In this document: positions 4,278 to 10,862 of the stretch, piece by piece | Position numbering within the stretch: the stretch's first letter is position 1 | How the letters are laid out: each line of letters begins with the position of its first letter | NCBI GenBank assembly: GCA_902573235.1 | Contig: CACGIZ010000010.1 | Span: 1-34,056, forward strand | DNA from: an uncultured Pelagibacteraceae bacterium | GTDB lineage: Bacteria > Pseudomonadota > Alphaproteobacteria > Pelagibacterales > Pelagibacteraceae | Direction: 5' to 3' | Length of the DNA stretch: 34,056 nucleotides | Program-made: the position numbers and the translations under genes | Notes under the pieces: generated by a model | The model's input: the letters and a program-made list of their open reading frames with translations, nothing else | Databases searched by the model: none | What the model was told of the DNA's origin: nothing

Positions 4278-5732
4278 TTATATTTTTTGATCATAGTCTC
4301 CAATTTTTCCAGTTTTTTGAAGCAATTGATCGATAAATTTAAATATTTCTATTTTTCTCTCCTCTGATGAGGGACTTTCTGTTACTATAACAAGCGAAGG
4401 TTTGTTTGAAGAAGCTCTAATTAAACCCCAAGAGCCATCCTCAAAAGAAAATCTTATTCCATTAACTGTAAGTATTTCTTTAATTTCTTGATTATCTATT
4501 TTATCTTTTTTATCTTTAATTGTTTTTATTTTATCAATAATTTCATCAACAACTTTATATTTTTCTTCATCTTTACAGTAAGGAGCCATAGTAGGTGATT
4601 GGAATGTTTTTGGAAGCTCGTTAATAATTTCACTAATTTCTTTATTTTCTTTATCTAAAAGATGACAAACTTGGATAGCTGAATTTATTCCATCATCATA
4701 TCCATAGCCTAATGGTTTATTGAAAAAAAAGTGTCCACTTTTTTCAAAACCCGCTAACGCTTTTTCATTATAAACTTTTCTTTTGATATGAGAGTGACCA
4801 GTTTTCCAATATATAGTTTTACATTTATTTTGATTTAAGATCTTATCATTGGTGTAAAGTCCAGTCGATTTTACATCAACAATAAATTTTGAATTATTAA
4901 AAGATACCGATAAATTTCTAGCTATCAATAAACCTATTTTATCAGAAAAAATTTCATTTCCTTTGTCGTCTATTACTCCTACGCGATCACCATCTCCATC
5001 GAAACCAAAACCTATATTGGCATTATTTTTTTTAACTGCTTCAGCTATTTCATGTAACATTTTTAAATCTTCAGGATTTGGATTATATTTAGGAAATGTC
5101 CAGTCTAAATTACAATCTAATTCTATAACATCACATCCAATTTTTCTTAAAATATCTGGTGCAAATATTCCAGCTGTTCCGTTTCCACATGCTACAACTG
5201 CTTTAATTTTTTTATTTATTTTATTTTTTTTTATTAAATCTTCTTTATAGATATTCTGATAATTATCTATTTTTTTTTCATTTCCTTGATTTATTATAAA
5301 TTTTTGGTTCAATGTAATTTCTTTTAATTCTTTCATCTCTTCGGGTGCGTGTGTTAAACCTTTTTTGATGCCCATTTTTACACCAGTCCAGCCATTCTCG
5401 TTGTGGCTAGCAGTTACCATTGCTACAGCATCACTACCAAGATCAAATTGAGCAAAGTAAACCATAGGTGATAACGATAATCCTATATCTTCTACAAAAC
5501 ATCCTGTTGAGATCAGTCCTTTTTTAAGTGCTGCTTTAATTTCTTCACTGTAAGACCTATAATCATGACCTACTATTACTCTTGGATTATTTTTTTTAGT
5601 GTGGTTTATAATTTGGGTGCCAAATCCTTTACCCAGATTTGTGATTCCCTCTGCATTGATATCTTTATTATAAATCCATCGTGCGTCATACTCCCTAAAA
5701 CCATATGGATCTATTTTTAATGATTGATTCAT
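4278..5732 (-). CDS. Phosphomannomutase/phosphoglucomutase
   Basis: This alpha-D-phosphohexomutase interconverts hexose 1- and 6-phosphates and supplies precursors for surface sugars. All four family motifs are present. They are the catalytic phosphoserine loop TASHNENGWTGVKMG (Ser109), the metal loop DGDGDR (245-250), the sugar-specificity loop FEKSGH (329-334), and a C-terminal phosphate-binding loop RASSNKPSLVIVTES. The N-terminal GFREYDARW also matches. Its 484 residues are close to the bifunctional PMM/PGM type (AlgC-like). Which sugar is preferred cannot be decided. It is divergent from nrdA with 157 bp between the starts. Confidence 0.9.
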   Translation of the reverse strand: MNQSLKIDPYGFREYDARWIYNKDINAEGITNLGKGFGTQIINHTKKNNPRVIVGHDYRSYSEEIKAALKKGLISTGCFVEDIGLSLSPMVYFAQFDLGSDAVAMVTASHNENGWTGVKMGIKKGLTHAPEEMKELKEITLNQKFIINQGNEKKIDNYQNIYKEDLIKKNKINKKIKAVVACGNGTAGIFAPDILRKIGCDVIELDCNLDWTFPKYNPNPEDLKMLHEIAEAVKKNNANIGFGFDGDGDRVGVIDDKGNEIFSDKIGLLIARNLSVSFNNSKFIVDVKSTGLYTNDKILNQNKCKTIYWKTGHSHIKRKVYNEKALAGFEKSGHFFFNKPLGYGYDDGINSAIQVCHLLDKENKEISEIINELPKTFQSPTMAPYCKDEEKYKVVDEIIDKIKTIKDKKDKIDNQEIKEILTVNGIRFSFEDGSWGLIRASSNKPSLVIVTESPSSEERKIEIFKFIDQLLQKTGKIGDYDQKI

Positions 5733-5785
5733 GCTGTTAATTACTTACCTTTTTTTAAATTTTATAGTTGAATTATTTTAGCTAT

Positions 5786-5800
5786 GTTCTATAAATGTTC
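5786..5800 (+). promoter_or_regulatory. Possible LexA (SOS) operator, alphaproteobacterial type
   Basis: GTTC (5786-5789), seven bases, GTTC (5797-5800) is an exact match to the GTTC-N7-GTTC direct repeat known as the LexA box of many alphaproteobacteria. It lies between the divergent phosphomutase and nrdA genes, 90 bp before the nrdA ATG and upstream of its likely -35. With this base composition I roughly estimate about 0.5 chance matches over both strands of the window, so position is the main support. No lexA gene is in the window. Confidence 0.4.
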
Positions 5801-5842
5801 TATTGATTTACTGATTATATAGTATATCAATATTGAACGCAT

Positions 5843-5857
5843 ACAACATGTAGTTGT
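5843..5857. promoter_or_regulatory. Inverted repeat upstream of nrdA
   Basis: ACAAC, five bases (ATGTA), GTTGT form a perfect inverted repeat with 5-bp arms that overlaps the candidate -35 of nrdA. A second palindrome, TCAATATTGA, lies at 5827-5836. Either could be a repressor site. Neither fits the 16-bp NrdR box well enough to name it. Confidence 0.3.
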
Positions 5858-5881
5858 TTTCGTAAAATAACAAAATATAAT
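5854..5881 (+). promoter_or_regulatory. Likely promoter of nrdAB, near-leaderless
   Basis: TTGTTT (5854-5859), a 16-bp spacer and a perfect TATAAT (5876-5881) lie just before the nrdA ATG at 5890. Transcription would start about 7 bp after the -10, practically at the start codon, giving a leaderless or nearly leaderless mRNA. No Shine-Dalgarno sequence precedes the ATG, which agrees with that. Confidence 0.5.
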
Positions 5882-5889
5882 ACATTATT

Positions 5890-7830
5890 ATGAACAAAAT
5901 ACTATCTCAGGCACTCAAGAAAGCTGTCTCCGAATATAGCCCTGAAGTCAAAGAGGTATCAAAAAATAATAGACCAGATCTTTTCTCATTAAATAATGAA
6001 ACAGAACTTTTTCAAAACGACAAAGGTATTATTATTAAAATTGATCGTTCAAGAGATTCAAACTTAACTGATTTTGGTAAAGCAACTTTAAAAGATAGAT
6101 ATTTAGGTCAGAATGAATCTTTTCAAGATTTATTTGCAAGAGTAGCAAGTACATACGCTGATGACAATTTACACGCACAAAGAATTTATAACTATATTAG
6201 TAATCTATGGTTTATGCCAGCAACACCCGTTCTATCGAATGGTGGAACTAAGAGAGGTTTGCCAATATCATGTTTCTTAAATGAAGCTTCAGATAGTCTT
6301 GGAGGGATTTTGGATTTATGGAGTGAAAATGTTTGGTTAGCAGCTAAGGGTGGTGGTATTGGTAGTTATTGGGGTAATCTTAGATCAATTGGTGAAAAAA
6401 TTGGTAGAGTTGGAAAAACTTCTGGGATAATTCCATTTATAAAAGTTATGGACTCTCTAACAATGGCAATTAGCCAAGGTTCGCTTAGAAGAGGTTCGGC
6501 AGCATGTTATCTTCCAATAGATCATCCCGAAATAGAGGAGTTTATTGAAATGAGAAGACCAACAGGTGGAGATCCAAACAGAAAAGCTTTAAATCTTCAT
6601 CATGGTGTTCTAGTTTCAGACGCTTTTATGAGAGCAGTTGAAACTGATGATCAATGGGCATTAAAAAGTCCAGTTGATGGAACAGTTCAACAAACTATAT
6701 CTGCTAGAAATTTATGGATTAGATTGTTAACCGCAAGAATTGAAACAGGTGAACCTTATATCATTTATATTGACACGGTGAACAGACAAATTCCTCAACA
6801 TCACAAATTAGCAAATCTTACTGTTAAAACCTCTAACTTGTGCAGTGAAATAACTTTACCTACGGGGATTGATAAAGACGGTAGAGATAGAACAGCAGTC
6901 TGTTGTTTGTCTTCTTTGAATATTGAAAAATATGAAGAGTGGAAAGATGATCCTAATATGATTAGTGATGTTATGAGATTCTTAGATAATGTTTTATCGG
7001 ACTTTATATATAAAGCTCCTGATCAATTTAAAGATGCTAAATATTCAGCTGAAAGAGAAAGAAGCGTCGGCTTAGGAGTAATGGGTTTTCACTCTTTCTT
7101 ACAAAAAAATAGAATTCCTCTTGAGTCAGTAATGGCAAAAGCTTGGAACAAAAAAATATTCAAAAATATTCATGAAAAAGTTAATCAGGCCTCAAAAGAT
7201 TTGGCAGAGGAAAGAGGTGCTTGTCCAGATGCAGAAGAATATGGTTTTAAAGAAAGATTTTCTAACAAAACAGCTATAGCGCCTACAGCATCTATTTCTA
7301 TAATTTGCGGCGGTGCTTCTCCTGGTGTTGAACCTATAGCTGCAAATAGTTACACACATAAAACATTGTCTGGATCATTTAATGTTAGAAATAGATATTT
7401 AGAAGAAATTTTGGAAAGTCATGGTAAAAATGATGATGAGACTTGGTCTACAATTACAACTAATCAAGGTTCAGTATCACATTTAGATTTTTTAACTAAC
7501 TTAGAAAAAGATGTTTTCAAAACTGCCTTTGAATTAAATCAGCATTGGATAATTGATTTGAGTGGGGATAGAACTCCTTATATTTCTCAAGCTCAATCAG
7601 TTAATTTATTTTTACCAGCTGATGTTCATAAAAAAGAGTTACATAAAATTCATTTTGATGCTTGGAAAAAAGGATTGAAAAGCCTTTATTACTGTAGATC
7701 AAAATCAATCCAAAGAGCTGAAAATATTAATGATGCAAAATCAACAGATATTACAGCTAATGTGTATAAATCAAAAAATCAACAATCAAACGAACAACAA
7801 GAATACGAGGAATGTTTATCATGTCAGTAG
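5890..7830 (+). CDS. nrdA: Class I ribonucleoside-diphosphate reductase, alpha (R1) subunit
   Basis: NrdA is the catalytic subunit that makes deoxyribonucleotides from NDPs, using a radical generated in the beta subunit. Redox-active cysteines are seen in LPISCFLNE (Cys128) and CCLSSLN (338-339). The finger loop SNLCSE carries the thiyl Cys318 and Glu320. Other features are PTASISIICGGASPGVEP, the radical-relay tyrosines in SLYYCRSK (Tyr600-Tyr601), and the C-terminal shuttle pair CLSCQ (Cys642, Cys645). At 646 residues it is about 115 shorter than E. coli NrdA. The catalytic domain begins by about residue 60, and I see no N-terminal ATP-cone, so dATP inhibition through a cone is not expected. 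nrdB overlaps its 3' end. Confidence 0.94.
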   Translation: MNKILSQALKKAVSEYSPEVKEVSKNNRPDLFSLNNETELFQNDKGIIIKIDRSRDSNLTDFGKATLKDRYLGQNESFQDLFARVASTYADDNLHAQRIYNYISNLWFMPATPVLSNGGTKRGLPISCFLNEASDSLGGILDLWSENVWLAAKGGGIGSYWGNLRSIGEKIGRVGKTSGIIPFIKVMDSLTMAISQGSLRRGSAACYLPIDHPEIEEFIEMRRPTGGDPNRKALNLHHGVLVSDAFMRAVETDDQWALKSPVDGTVQQTISARNLWIRLLTARIETGEPYIIYIDTVNRQIPQHHKLANLTVKTSNLCSEITLPTGIDKDGRDRTAVCCLSSLNIEKYEEWKDDPNMISDVMRFLDNVLSDFIYKAPDQFKDAKYSAERERSVGLGVMGFHSFLQKNRIPLESVMAKAWNKKIFKNIHEKVNQASKDLAEERGACPDAEEYGFKERFSNKTAIAPTASISIICGGASPGVEPIAANSYTHKTLSGSFNVRNRYLEEILESHGKNDDETWSTITTNQGSVSHLDFLTNLEKDVFKTAFELNQHWIIDLSGDRTPYISQAQSVNLFLPADVHKKELHKIHFDAWKKGLKSLYYCRSKSIQRAENINDAKSTDITANVYKSKNQQSNEQQEYEECLSCQ

Positions 7831-8837
7831 CAGAAAAAATCAAAATAGAGAAAAAAGAAATAATACAACCAAAAAAAATGGGCTTATTAACTGAAAATCC
7901 AGTTTATAAACCATTTAGATATCCTTGGTGTTATGATGCATGGTTAACCCAACAAAGAATTCATTGGTTGCCTGAGGAAGTTCCTTTAGGTGATGATGTT
8001 AGAGATTGGCAAAAAAACTTATCTCAACCAGAAAAAAACTTGTTAACTCAAATATTTAGATTTTTTACTCAAGCAGATGTTGAAGTTAACAACTGCTATT
8101 TAAGACACTACACGACTGTTTTTAAACCTACAGAAGTTCTGATGATGATGACAGCTTTCGCTGCAATGGAAACAGTTCATGTAGCTGCTTACTCTCATTT
8201 ATTAGATACAATCGGAATGCCAGAGTCAGAATATTCTGCATTCATGAAATACAAAGAAATGAAGGATAAGTATGATTACATGCAAGGTTTCAATGTAAAT
8301 TCAAAAGAGGATATTGCAAAAACGGTTGCTGTATTTAGTGCGTTCACAGAAGGTTTGCAGTTGTTTGCGAGTTTTGCAATTCTTTTGAATTTTCCAAGAC
8401 ATAACAAAATGAAAGGTATGGGTCAGATTGTTACTTGGTCAGTTAGGGATGAAACTCTTCATTGTAATTCCATGATAAGGATTTTTAAAGAGTTCATAAA
8501 AGAAAATCCAGAAATTTGGACTCCAAAATTAAAAAAAGAACTTTATGAAGCATGTAGAATAATTGTTGAGCATGAGGATGCGTTTATCGATTTAGCATTT
8601 GAAATGGGTCCAATGGAAGGATTAACAGCTCAAGAGGTTAAAGATTACATTAGGTTTATTGCAAATAGAAGATTGGATCAGCTCGGGCTAGAGCCAATTT
8701 ATAAAGTTGATAAAAATCCTTTGACTTGGTTGGACACAATGTTGAATGCAGTAGAACATATGAATTTCTTTGAAGGCCGTGCAACAGAATATTCTAAAGC
8801 GTCTACTCAAGGAACTTGGGCAGAAGCGTTTAGTTAA
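7821..8837 (+). CDS. nrdB: Class I ribonucleoside-diphosphate reductase, beta (R2) subunit
   Basis: NrdB houses the di-iron centre and the tyrosyl radical that start NrdA catalysis. The ligand set is complete: Asp86 (TQADVEVNN), Glu117 and His120 (AMETVH), Glu177 (TEGLQLF), and Glu211 and His214 (RDETLH). Tyr124 sits four residues after His120, where the radical tyrosine belongs. The frame is open from 7812, but I chose the ATG at 7821 because GAGGA ends 9 bases before it; this gives 338 aa and a 10-bp overlap with nrdA. The overlap suggests coupled translation. There is no ATP-cone at its N-terminus either. Its stop is 4 bp from that of the convergent prpC. Confidence 0.94.
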   Translation: MSVAEKIKIEKKEIIQPKKMGLLTENPVYKPFRYPWCYDAWLTQQRIHWLPEEVPLGDDVRDWQKNLSQPEKNLLTQIFRFFTQADVEVNNCYLRHYTTVFKPTEVLMMMTAFAAMETVHVAAYSHLLDTIGMPESEYSAFMKYKEMKDKYDYMQGFNVNSKEDIAKTVAVFSAFTEGLQLFASFAILLNFPRHNKMKGMGQIVTWSVRDETLHCNSMIRIFKEFIKENPEIWTPKLKKELYEACRIIVEHEDAFIDLAFEMGPMEGLTAQEVKDYIRFIANRRLDQLGLEPIYKVDKNPLTWLDTMLNAVEHMNFFEGRATEYSKASTQGTWAEAFS

Positions 8838-8841
8838 TTTG

Positions 8842-9966
8842 TTATCTTTGGTTTAACTGTACAACTTTTCTATGTTGATTACCTTTGTAACTAGCTAAAG
8901 GTCTAATCAATTTATTTGCTGCATGTTGCTCCATAATGTGAGCTGACCAGCCAGTAATTCTAGATATTACAAATATTGGTGTAAAAAAATCTGTATCAAA
9001 ACCCATTAGGTGATAGGTAGGTCCAGTTGGGTAGTCTACATTTGGATGTATATTTTTTCTGTCTATCATTACTTTCTCAACAATATCATAAATTTTTTCA
9101 AATTTTTTATCTTTTTTAATTTTAGCAACTTTTGCAAAATATTTTCTCATTGTAGGAACTCTGGAGTCACCAGATTTATAAACTCTATGACCAAAACCCA
9201 TAACAACTTCCCTATTATCTAATGCATTGTTAATCCATTTAAGAGCATTAGCAGGTGTCTTAATTTTATTCATCATATGCATTACTTCCTCGTTGGCACC
9301 ACCATGGAGTGGACCTTTTAAACTTGCGATTGCCCCTGTAATAGCTCCATGAATGTCAGACAAACTACTAGTAATAGTCCTTGCAGTAAATGTTGATACA
9401 TTAAAACTATGTTCTGCATATAAAATCAAAGAAACATCAAAAGCTTTTACAATTTCTTTTTGGGGAACTTTTCCAAAACACATATAGAAAAAATTCTCAG
9501 CTATATTTAAGTTTTTTTTAGGTTTGATAATATTTTTACCTTTTCTCAATCTATAAAAAGCAGCTAAAGCAGTTGGTGTTTTGGCTAAAATTCTGATTGC
9601 TTTTCTCATGTTAGCCTCAGGTGAAGAGTCTGTTGTCTCTTTATCTTCAAGGCCCATTATACTTACTGCAGTTCTAGCGACATCCATTGGATGAGATTTT
9701 TTTGGCATTTTTTTTAGAATTGAGTATAGATCTTTGGATAATTCTCTATTATTTTTTTCCTCTTTTTCAAATTTTCTAAGTTCAATAGTATTAGGAAGAT
9801 CTTTATTTAAAATTAAGTAAGCAACTTCTTCAAACCTACAATATTCACATAAATCCTGTGCAGCATACCCTCTATAAGTAAGAGAATTAATTTCAGGCAT
9901 TACTTTTGAAACTTCTGTTTCGTCAACAACTATACCTAATAAACCTTTTTTAATATCATCACTCAT
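8842..9966 (-). CDS. prpC: 2-methylcitrate synthase (citrate synthase family)
   Basis: This enzyme condenses propionyl-CoA with oxaloacetate to 2-methylcitrate, the first step of the methylcitrate cycle. The citrate synthase fold is clear: EHSFNVSTF (His186), GPLHGGANEEVM (His221), MGFGHRVYK (His260) and TDFFTPIF (Asp326) supply the binding and catalytic residues. At 374 residues it has the short form typical of methylcitrate synthases. The call rests mainly on its place as the last gene of a prpD-prpB-prpC operon, because sequence alone does not separate it cleanly from citrate synthase. Its ATG overlaps the prpB stop by one base (TAATG). Confidence 0.88.
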   Translation of the reverse strand: MSDDIKKGLLGIVVDETEVSKVMPEINSLTYRGYAAQDLCEYCRFEEVAYLILNKDLPNTIELRKFEKEEKNNRELSKDLYSILKKMPKKSHPMDVARTAVSIMGLEDKETTDSSPEANMRKAIRILAKTPTALAAFYRLRKGKNIIKPKKNLNIAENFFYMCFGKVPQKEIVKAFDVSLILYAEHSFNVSTFTARTITSSLSDIHGAITGAIASLKGPLHGGANEEVMHMMNKIKTPANALKWINNALDNREVVMGFGHRVYKSGDSRVPTMRKYFAKVAKIKKDKKFEKIYDIVEKVMIDRKNIHPNVDYPTGPTYHLMGFDTDFFTPIFVISRITGWSAHIMEQHAANKLIRPLASYKGNQHRKVVQLNQR

Positions 9967-10862
9967 TATTCGTGGCCTTCAGTGCTAAAATTATAAATTT
10001 TTTCATCCAAACTATTATATTTTTCGTAATCAACAAGCTCGTATAAACGTTTTCTAGTCTGCATTTTATCAATAATATTATTTTGATGTCCATTTGCATA
10101 AATGTCTCTCAATCCATCTTCAACATTTTTCATTGCTAACCTTTGAGTTGTAACTGGATATATAACTATATTGTAACCAAATTGCTCTAATTCTTTATAA
10201 TTAAATAGCTTAGTCTTACCAAACTCAGTCATGTTTGCTAATAAATAACACTTTAGTTCTTCTCTAACTTTTTCAAAATCTTTTTCATCATGTAAAGCTT
10301 CAGGGAAAATAATTTCAGCTCCTGCATCAATGTAGGCTTTGCATCTATCTATCATTTTATCAATCCCCTCTACACTTTTTGCGTCAGATCGTGCAATAAT
10401 TTTAAAATTATCATCTTTTTTAGCATTTACACATTCCTTAATCTTATTCACCATTTTATCTGTAGAAATTAATTCTTTATTATCTAAATGCCCACATCTT
10501 TTTCTTTCTATTTGGTCTTCTAAATGTACTGCTGAAATTCCAAATTCCTCAAAAGTTTCAATCGTTTCTTTGCAGGATTTGAAACCAGTATCTATATCAA
10601 CAATTGTGGGAAGATTTGTTACTCTAGAAATTAAATATGAACGTGTGCTTACATCTTGCAAAGTAGTTAAACCGATATCAGGAAATCCTAAATCATTTGC
10701 CATTACACCTCCCGAAACATAAACTGCATCATAGCCTATTTCCTCAATTAATTTTGCTGTTAATGGGTTATATGCACCAGGCACTCTAAGAATTTTGTTA
10801 GATTTTAATTTTTTAACTAACTCTTCTCTTTTTTGCTTAGGCTCTTTCTCTACAAAATGCAT
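9966..10862 (-). CDS. prpB: Methylisocitrate lyase
   Basis: PrpB splits 2-methylisocitrate into pyruvate and succinate, the last step of the methylcitrate cycle. It belongs to the isocitrate lyase/PEP mutase superfamily. The active-site loop KRCGHL (residues 121-126, Cys123) and the metal-binding VDIDTGF (Asp89, Asp91) are visible. VSGGVMANDLGFPDIG near residue 50 is typical of the family. The length of 298 aa is normal. It overlaps both neighbours by one base through TAATG junctions: the prpD C-terminal frame stops on its ATG, and its own stop overlaps the prpC ATG. This argues for translational coupling. Confidence 0.92.
   Translation of the reverse strand: MHFVEKEPKQKREELVKKLKSNKILRVPGAYNPLTAKLIEEIGYDAVYVSGGVMANDLGFPDIGLTTLQDVSTRSYLISRVTNLPTIVDIDTGFKSCKETIETFEEFGISAVHLEDQIERKRCGHLDNKELISTDKMVNKIKECVNAKKDDNFKIIARSDAKSVEGIDKMIDRCKAYIDAGAEIIFPEALHDEKDFEKVREELKCYLLANMTEFGKTKLFNYKELEQFGYNIVIYPVTTQRLAMKNVEDGLRDIYANGHQNNIIDKMQTRKRLYELVDYEKYNSLDEKIYNFSTEGHE

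Follow-up and report, generated by a model that had tools for sequence, protein, structure and literature searches.

The alphaproteobacterial LexA box, as described for Caulobacter crescentus, is the direct repeat GTTC-N7-GTTC, and the available excerpts of the two papers in question do not name nrdAB as a LexA target (PMC12700426, PMC4211646). The class I ribonucleotide reductase encoded by nrdAB is known to be raised by DNA damage in other bacteria, namely Escherichia coli, Vibrio cholerae and Acinetobacter baylyi, according to excerpts of the studies concerned (PMC3009722, PMC11002266, PMC5963079, PMC3978071, PMC4807011). The same excerpts report that UV induction of nrdA in E. coli is LexA-independent (PMC3009722), that in V. 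cholerae nrdAB is placed outside the SOS regulon and LexA gave no gel shift with a LexA-box-like sequence close to the nrdA promoter (PMC5963079), and that nrdA induction in A. baylyi requires neither recA nor umuDAb (PMC3978071). In one of the studies, which used ciprofloxacin, nrdA did not increase significantly (PMC11002266). These cases indicate that nrdAB can answer damage without LexA and that a look-alike site at nrdA can mislead. The main text of a Streptomyces venezuelae LexA paper does not mention nrd, and we recognised no report of LexA control of nrdAB in alphaproteobacteria within the open-licence literature, a result that does not by itself establish absence from print. A further type of control is that by NrdR, for which the excerpted source describes, in E. 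coli, Streptomyces coelicolor and Listeria monocytogenes, two boxes upstream of the ribonucleotide reductase operon, mostly with 15-16 bp between them and three helical turns from centre to centre (PMC12051234).

The locus described here, from a SAR11 bacterium, resembles each of these systems in part. With the LexA box of C. crescentus, as excerpted, it shares the half-sites and their spacing, and the SAR11 site also stands ahead of lexA; it differs in its predicted target, nrdAB, in having none at uvrA and in a spacer that doubles as a -10 element. With the nrdAB operons of E. coli, V. cholerae and A. baylyi it shares the enzyme, one raised by damage, whereas induction there is LexA-independent, outside the SOS regulon or independent of recA and umuDAb, and control in SAR11 would be direct. 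With the NrdR-controlled promoters of the excerpted source (PMC12051234) it shares two boxes, a centre distance of three turns, a position upstream of the operon and an nrdR gene in the genome; it differs in boxes that look diverged from the consensus and in a predicted LexA operator on the promoter beside them. We do not regard the locus as a system of a new kind. Its unusual points are the predicted target, the way the operator overlaps the -10, the presence of NrdR-like sites nearby and a regulon of small size.

The repeat and the promoter of nrdAB

The window, that is, the whole stretch of 34,056 bases that was analysed, is contig C10 of a 1.05-Mb draft genome of SAR11 (Pelagibacteraceae), which is 75% complete and comprises 35 contigs. 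The features around the repeat are as follows.

4278-5732, minus strand: phosphoglucomutase/phosphomannomutase-type (phosphohexomutase-type) gene, divergent (NF046027, 274.9 bits, under the cut-off of 600)
5768-5773, plus strand: TTGAAT, predicted -35 element for nrdA (TTG 100% conserved; 16 or 17 bases before the spacer TAT in 96/96)
5786-5800, plus strand: predicted LexA operator GTTC-TATAAAT-GTTC (exact match; 107/108 readable loci; mean column identity 0.994)
5790-5795, plus strand: predicted -10 element TATAAA inside the operator spacer (spacer forms TATAAAT, TATATAT or TATTAAT in all 107)
5812-5826, plus strand: predicted NrdR box 1, TTATATAGTATAT (31 bases before box 2; identity 0.88 over 5815-5832)
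5843-5857, plus strand: predicted NrdR box 2, ACAACATGTAGTTGT (15-base near-palindrome; identity 0.95 over 5844-5862)
5890-7830, plus strand: nrdA, encoding the alpha subunit of class I ribonucleotide reductase (NF006577, 1007.9 bits, cut-off 620; PF02867, PF00317)
7812-8837, plus strand: nrdB, encoding the beta subunit of ribonucleotide reductase; overlaps nrdA (NF007186, 568.7 bits, cut-off 237; PF00268)

An earlier sequence-only reading of this DNA had pointed to an exact repeat in a 157-bp divergent region ahead of nrdAB, and both observations hold: the intergenic region between the phosphohexomutase-type gene and nrdA spans 5733-5889 (157 bp), and GTTCTATAAATGTTC at 5786-5800 on the plus strand is the sole exact GTTC-N7-GTTC in the window on both strands. 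The divergent gene shares this region, and no evidence was found that the operator controls it. Adjoining nrdB on its other side, methylcitrate-cycle genes (2-methylcitrate/citrate synthase and methylisocitrate lyase) occupy 8842-10862 on the minus strand. A match to NrdA was obtained in 30 of 37 genomes of the genus, exactly one in each, by a search that also catches distant ribonucleotide reductase relatives in another family; nrdAB looks like the sole class I/II ribonucleotide reductase found in the genus. The same reading had estimated about half a match by chance, a figure borne out by dinucleotide shuffling, which gave a mean of 0.44 copies per window and at least one copy in 35 of 100 shuffles, so that the motif by itself is within chance.

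Conservation was assessed in the 80 loci with the closest nrdA (94-98% identical) and 30 further loci, the window's own included. The start of nrdA could be placed in 109 of these 110 loci, and one (L085) has just five bases upstream, leaving 108 readable regions, of which 96 are distinct; the loci are the best-scoring ones and not a random sample, the same genome is possibly present twice and, owing to common ancestry, the counts do not represent independent events. The exact repeat was found in 107 of the 108, at 93-111 bases ahead of the start, the single exception (L050) reading ATTC. Its spacer is TATAAAT in 99 loci, TATATAT in six and TATTAAT in two. Over the 96 distinct sequences, the 15 columns of the repeat have a mean identity of 0.994 to the commonest base (0.988 for the spacer only), and both GTTC half-sites, which lie outside the -10, are 99-100% conserved. 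Identity in the flanks is 0.73 (5755-5785, including the -35), 0.89 (5801-5806), 0.68 (5807-5814), 0.72 (5833-5843) and 0.73 (5863-5889); in the nrdA coding sequence it is, for comparison, 0.732 at third codon positions and 0.623 at 123 fourfold-degenerate sites. Judged from these alignments, the repeat upstream of nrdA is under strong constraint, and it is the conservation in 107 of 108 loci that settles its meaning.

The arrangement of the promoter is equally regular. In the distinct sequences, a TTG precedes the TAT of the spacer by 16 bases in 62 cases and by 17 in 34 (96/96), and within the range of 8-30 bases the other TTG spacings are just 19, 20 and 28-30, each in 1-8 sequences. The conserved signature is TTG, 16 or 17 bases, and TATAAA, TATATA or TATTAA, with its -10 falling within the repeat. 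The sequence-only reading had placed the repeat upstream of the only well-placed -35/-10, which proved mistaken, since the conserved -10 sits inside the repeat; a strict sigma-70 scan of the plus strand between 5650 and 5950 found no promoter, and it is blind to this one because it accepts only T at the sixth position of a -10. A promoter 3' of the repeat, formed by the TTG at 5803 and the TATAGTATAT stretch as -10, was also considered; its spacing is 9-14 bases (hand count), and it was rejected because the TTG at 5768 and the TATAAA at 5790 are separated by 16 or 17 bases in 96/96. The predicted half-sites flank the -10, so LexA would occupy the core promoter of nrdA, and a spacer that is itself the -10 element would explain its own conservation. 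We infer a transcript start near 5802.

The two NrdR-like sites lie just downstream, NrdR boxes being 16 bp in length, and their TAGT-to-TAGT offset is 31 bases in all 96 distinct sequences. By eye, these boxes look diverged from the NrdR consensus. The nrdR gene is present in the window's own genome (TIGR00244, 157.7 bits, cut-off 124.65) and in 50 of 61 genomes of the genus. The most likely arrangement would be one of two repressors at nrdAB, LexA for damage and NrdR for the nucleotide level.

LexA and its predicted sites in the genome

The possibility of SOS control of nrdAB, raised from the sequence alone, gains support from the conservation described above and from the presence of lexA in the genome. 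The lexA product matches LexA_DNA_bind (52.9 bits) and Peptidase_S24 (104.5 bits), as well as solved LexA chains by phmmer (best E 1.1e-26); in two alignments with the solved chains, Ala-Gly and Ser align in both and Lys in the second, which we take to be the residues with roles in LexA cleavage. In the genus, LexA_DNA_bind was matched in 46 of 61 genomes, many of them incomplete.

The repeat proposed at nrdA was also sought at lexA, recA and uvrA, with different outcomes. At lexA, all 27 loci read, out of 30, carry GTTC-N7-GTTC on the opposite strand; in the GTTC orientation the operator is GTTC-TATAAAA-GTTC or GTTC-TACAAAA-GTTC in 25 of these 27, and that of nrdA is GTTC-TATAAAT-GTTC. The lexA promoter (for example L012 in contig C20 of the own genome, and L203 in G012) carries four phased LexA-like half-sites, GAAC-GAAC-GTAC-GTTC, in 11-base steps that reach the start codon. 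The register is strictly of 11 bases in 19 of 30 loci, the second spacer is one base shorter in ten, and L145 gave no match.

The operator is also common to umuDC. In the three genomes examined (L003, L191, L212) the exact site stands right before umuD, ending 0-4 bases ahead of the start codon, so that the umuDC mRNA probably has little or no leader; the umuD promoters of these genomes read TTG-N17-TATAAA or TATTAA (counted by eye). The own-genome site (L003) falls within the longest open frame of the initial call; we place it upstream of umuD since the ATG from which MKLT is translated comes immediately after it, as it does in G012 and, at a distance of four bases, in G004.

At recA, the exact form is absent (0/30 loci) and the variant GAAC-N7-GTAC is present in 30/30. 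The variant (for example in L170) reads GAACAAAATGTGTAC in 28 loci and GAACAAAAGTAGTAC in two, between a likely -35 (TTGCTA) and the -10, and in the SAR11 clade GTAC seems to be an ordinary alternative form of the half-site. The gene uvrA is a LexA target in other alphaproteobacteria. Here the search at uvrA was negative: neither GTTC-N7-GTTC, GAAC-N7-GTAC nor other GTAC combinations were found in any of the 26 loci read, four of the 30 having been left out of the count as they are cut at the gene start. On this count uvrA was rejected as a further LexA target, and the result also shows that the repeat is no general promoter feature.

Genome-wide scans for exact patterns only were made with GTTC-N7-GTTC in the window's own genome (G000), in the complete relative G012 and in G004, and with GTAC-N7-GTTC in G000 and G012; copies were assigned as intergenic from our own reading-frame calls. 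Exact copies and those of a reversed control pattern numbered 12 and 13 in the own genome, 13 and 17 in G012 and 11 and 29 in G004, which indicates that the motif as such has no genome-wide enrichment and that its intergenic placement is what stands out. In G012, ten of the 13 copies lie in reading frames of 136-641 codons, and the three intergenic ones are at umuD, nrdA and lexA; in G004, where no nrdA was found, lexA and umuD are the sole intergenic sites among 11 copies. The GTAC-N7-GTTC form has seven copies in G012, intergenic once at recA and twice at lexA, with four within genes, and 11 in the own genome, of which the three intergenic ones are one at recA and two at lexA. Six of the 12 exact copies of the own genome are intergenic when umuD is counted as upstream: lexA, umuD, nrdA and three GTTCTAGTCTMGTTC copies. 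Taken together, the predicted SAR11 LexA regulon provisionally comprises lexA, recA, umuDC and nrdAB.

The three GTTCTAGTCTMGTTC copies are located at L007:1501-1515, L010:1025-1039 and L011:1501-1515 (contigs C8 and C12), in a common AACTAGAAC-type stretch, and their letters are GTTCTAGTCTAGTTC twice and GTTCTAGTCTCGTTC once. Two of them precede tRNA genes, tRNA-Leu(taa) by 84 bases and tRNA-Ser(tga) by 76; an autotransporter-domain gene and an NB-ARC-domain gene lie on the other side. They were not taken as LexA targets, being absent among the 13 copies of G012 and, in two cases, preceding tRNA genes beside island-like genes; possibly they are an island-associated repeat.

Outside SAR11, a sister genus in the family (L215) keeps the site as GTTCATATTATGTTC together with the second NrdR-like box, and no TTG was found there at 16-18 bases from the site. 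In a class-wide sample of 142 genomes, the loci of the 30 best NrdA matches included 28 besides the window and L215. The exact site occurs within the 350 bases examined at five of these 28 distant alphaproteobacterial loci (L216, L222, L227, L229, L237), that of L222 lying beyond the extrapolated start, yet 10 bases ahead of an ATG, and it is absent at the other 23. Shuffling gave a mean of 0.29 for the 28 loci and reached five in 0 of 2000 shuffles; among alternative spacings of 0-20, the best gives three. The site is common to four of four g85 loci (L216, L265, L266, L267), with a TTG at 16-17 bases in two of them, and to two of two g19 loci (L229, L262), and occurs in the one g146 locus (L275); it is missing in eight of eight g145 loci, the sister genus of a clade having it, and in the one g144 locus. 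This distribution points to a link between a LexA-type site and nrdA that is either old or recurrent and is missing from most of the lineages sampled.

Probable control of nrdAB by LexA and its alternatives

We hypothesize, with a probability of roughly 0.83, that the repeat is a LexA operator straddling the -10 of the nrdAB promoter and that DNA damage derepresses nrdAB through it. In undamaged cells, LexA bound to both GTTC half-sites, which are spaced by one helical turn, would compete for the core promoter with RNA polymerase and limit nrdAB to moderate expression; complete shut-off is not expected, because no other class I/II ribonucleotide reductase was found. Upon damage, RecA filaments on single-stranded DNA would lead to self-cleavage of LexA, and nrdAB would be derepressed along with lexA, recA and umuDC, providing more dNTP for repair and translesion synthesis, while NrdR on the second pair of sites just downstream would add feedback by the nucleotide level. 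In SAR11, DNA damage would thus very probably turn up nucleotide supply directly. Several observations count against control by LexA: recA lacks the exact repeat, the own genome has three extra intergenic copies, the motif shows no enrichment over the reversed control, most of the distant alphaproteobacterial loci (23 of 28) and all eight g145 loci are without the site, L215 has no TTG at 16-18 bases, and nrdA of E. coli and V. cholerae sets a precedent for damage induction or a look-alike site without LexA.

Other explanations of the repeat have to be weighed. That a short motif fell at nrdA by chance would agree with the 0.44 or so matches expected per window and with the 12 exact copies against 13 of the reversed control in the own genome, but it is refuted by conservation in 107 of 108 loci whose synonymous sites are well diverged, and we give it next to no weight. 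The GTTC flanks might instead serve another regulator or an unusual core promoter, the likeness to lexA and umuD being convergent. The element surrounds the -10, where contacts of RNA polymerase alone would conserve part of it, and the LexA-box-like sequence at nrdA of V. cholerae was, according to the excerpted study, unbound by LexA (PMC5963079). We nevertheless regard this explanation as quite unlikely: both half-sites lie outside the -10 and are 99-100% conserved, the same half-sites and spacing stand upstream of lexA and umuD with a variant at recA, the uvrA promoters are without the site (0/26) and the intergenic copies of G012 are solely at umuD, nrdA and lexA.

Control by NrdR only, with the LexA-like repeat inactive and nrdAB rising in infection or damage as dNTP pools fall, is a further alternative, in our view an unlikely one. 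It agrees with the presence of nrdR in 50 of 61 genomes of the genus and with the two boxes, which in 96/96 sequences keep the spacing described as common (PMC12051234). There are also precedents, as excerpted, for damage induction of nrdAB that is independent of LexA (E. coli, PMC3009722), lies outside the SOS regulon (V. cholerae, PMC5963079) or needs neither recA nor umuDAb (A. baylyi, PMC3978071). An inactive repeat, however, would not be expected to exceed all other stretches of the region in conservation, and the controls by NrdR and by LexA are mutually compatible.

Expression data in print are in line with the predicted LexA control. In 'Candidatus Pelagibacter' HTCC1062 infected with phage HTVC027P, nrdA was up 3.12-8.87-fold and nrdB 2.53-5.83-fold, and recA, lexA, umuD and umuC rose in the same infection; in its excerpted text, the study identifies no nrd genes in the phage, reads the nrd rise as a service to phage replication and discusses SOS apart (PMC12753301). 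HTCC1062 is expected, from its genus, to carry the nrdA site. The same excerpts report that 460 host genes changed and that three excinuclease subunits rose too (PMC12753301), and this transcriptome is unspecific for LexA because so many genes change and excinuclease genes rise without a site at uvrA. In iron-limited cells, lexA, recA and mucA cluster together, as far as the excerpts of the study go, and nrd is unmentioned in its main text (PMC2864753).

A broader proposal is tentative and, on balance, somewhat doubtful: the SOS response of SAR11 may have been reduced to about four operons (lexA, recA, umuDC and nrdAB), with uvrA dropped and the only detected class I/II ribonucleotide reductase placed under LexA, unlike in E. 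coli and Vibrio. Phages without nrd genes of their own, HTVC027P among them, could in that case obtain dNTPs by setting off this response, something that nrdAB-carrying phages, such as HTVC022P, would not need. Given that the operator is found again at nrdA in several distant alphaproteobacteria, direct LexA control of dNTP supply may also be an old feature of the class or one that evolved in it more than once.

SAR11 bacteria are among the ocean's most abundant, sunlight-exposed bacterial groups and have few regulators. If LexA does control nrdAB, DNA damage would be tied directly to dNTP supply in these organisms, which would be notable against E. coli and V. cholerae, reported in the excerpted studies to induce the same enzyme without LexA. 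It would also offer a mechanism for the induction of host nrdAB in phage infection, and the SAR11 SOS regulon would be a compact one, testable in full.
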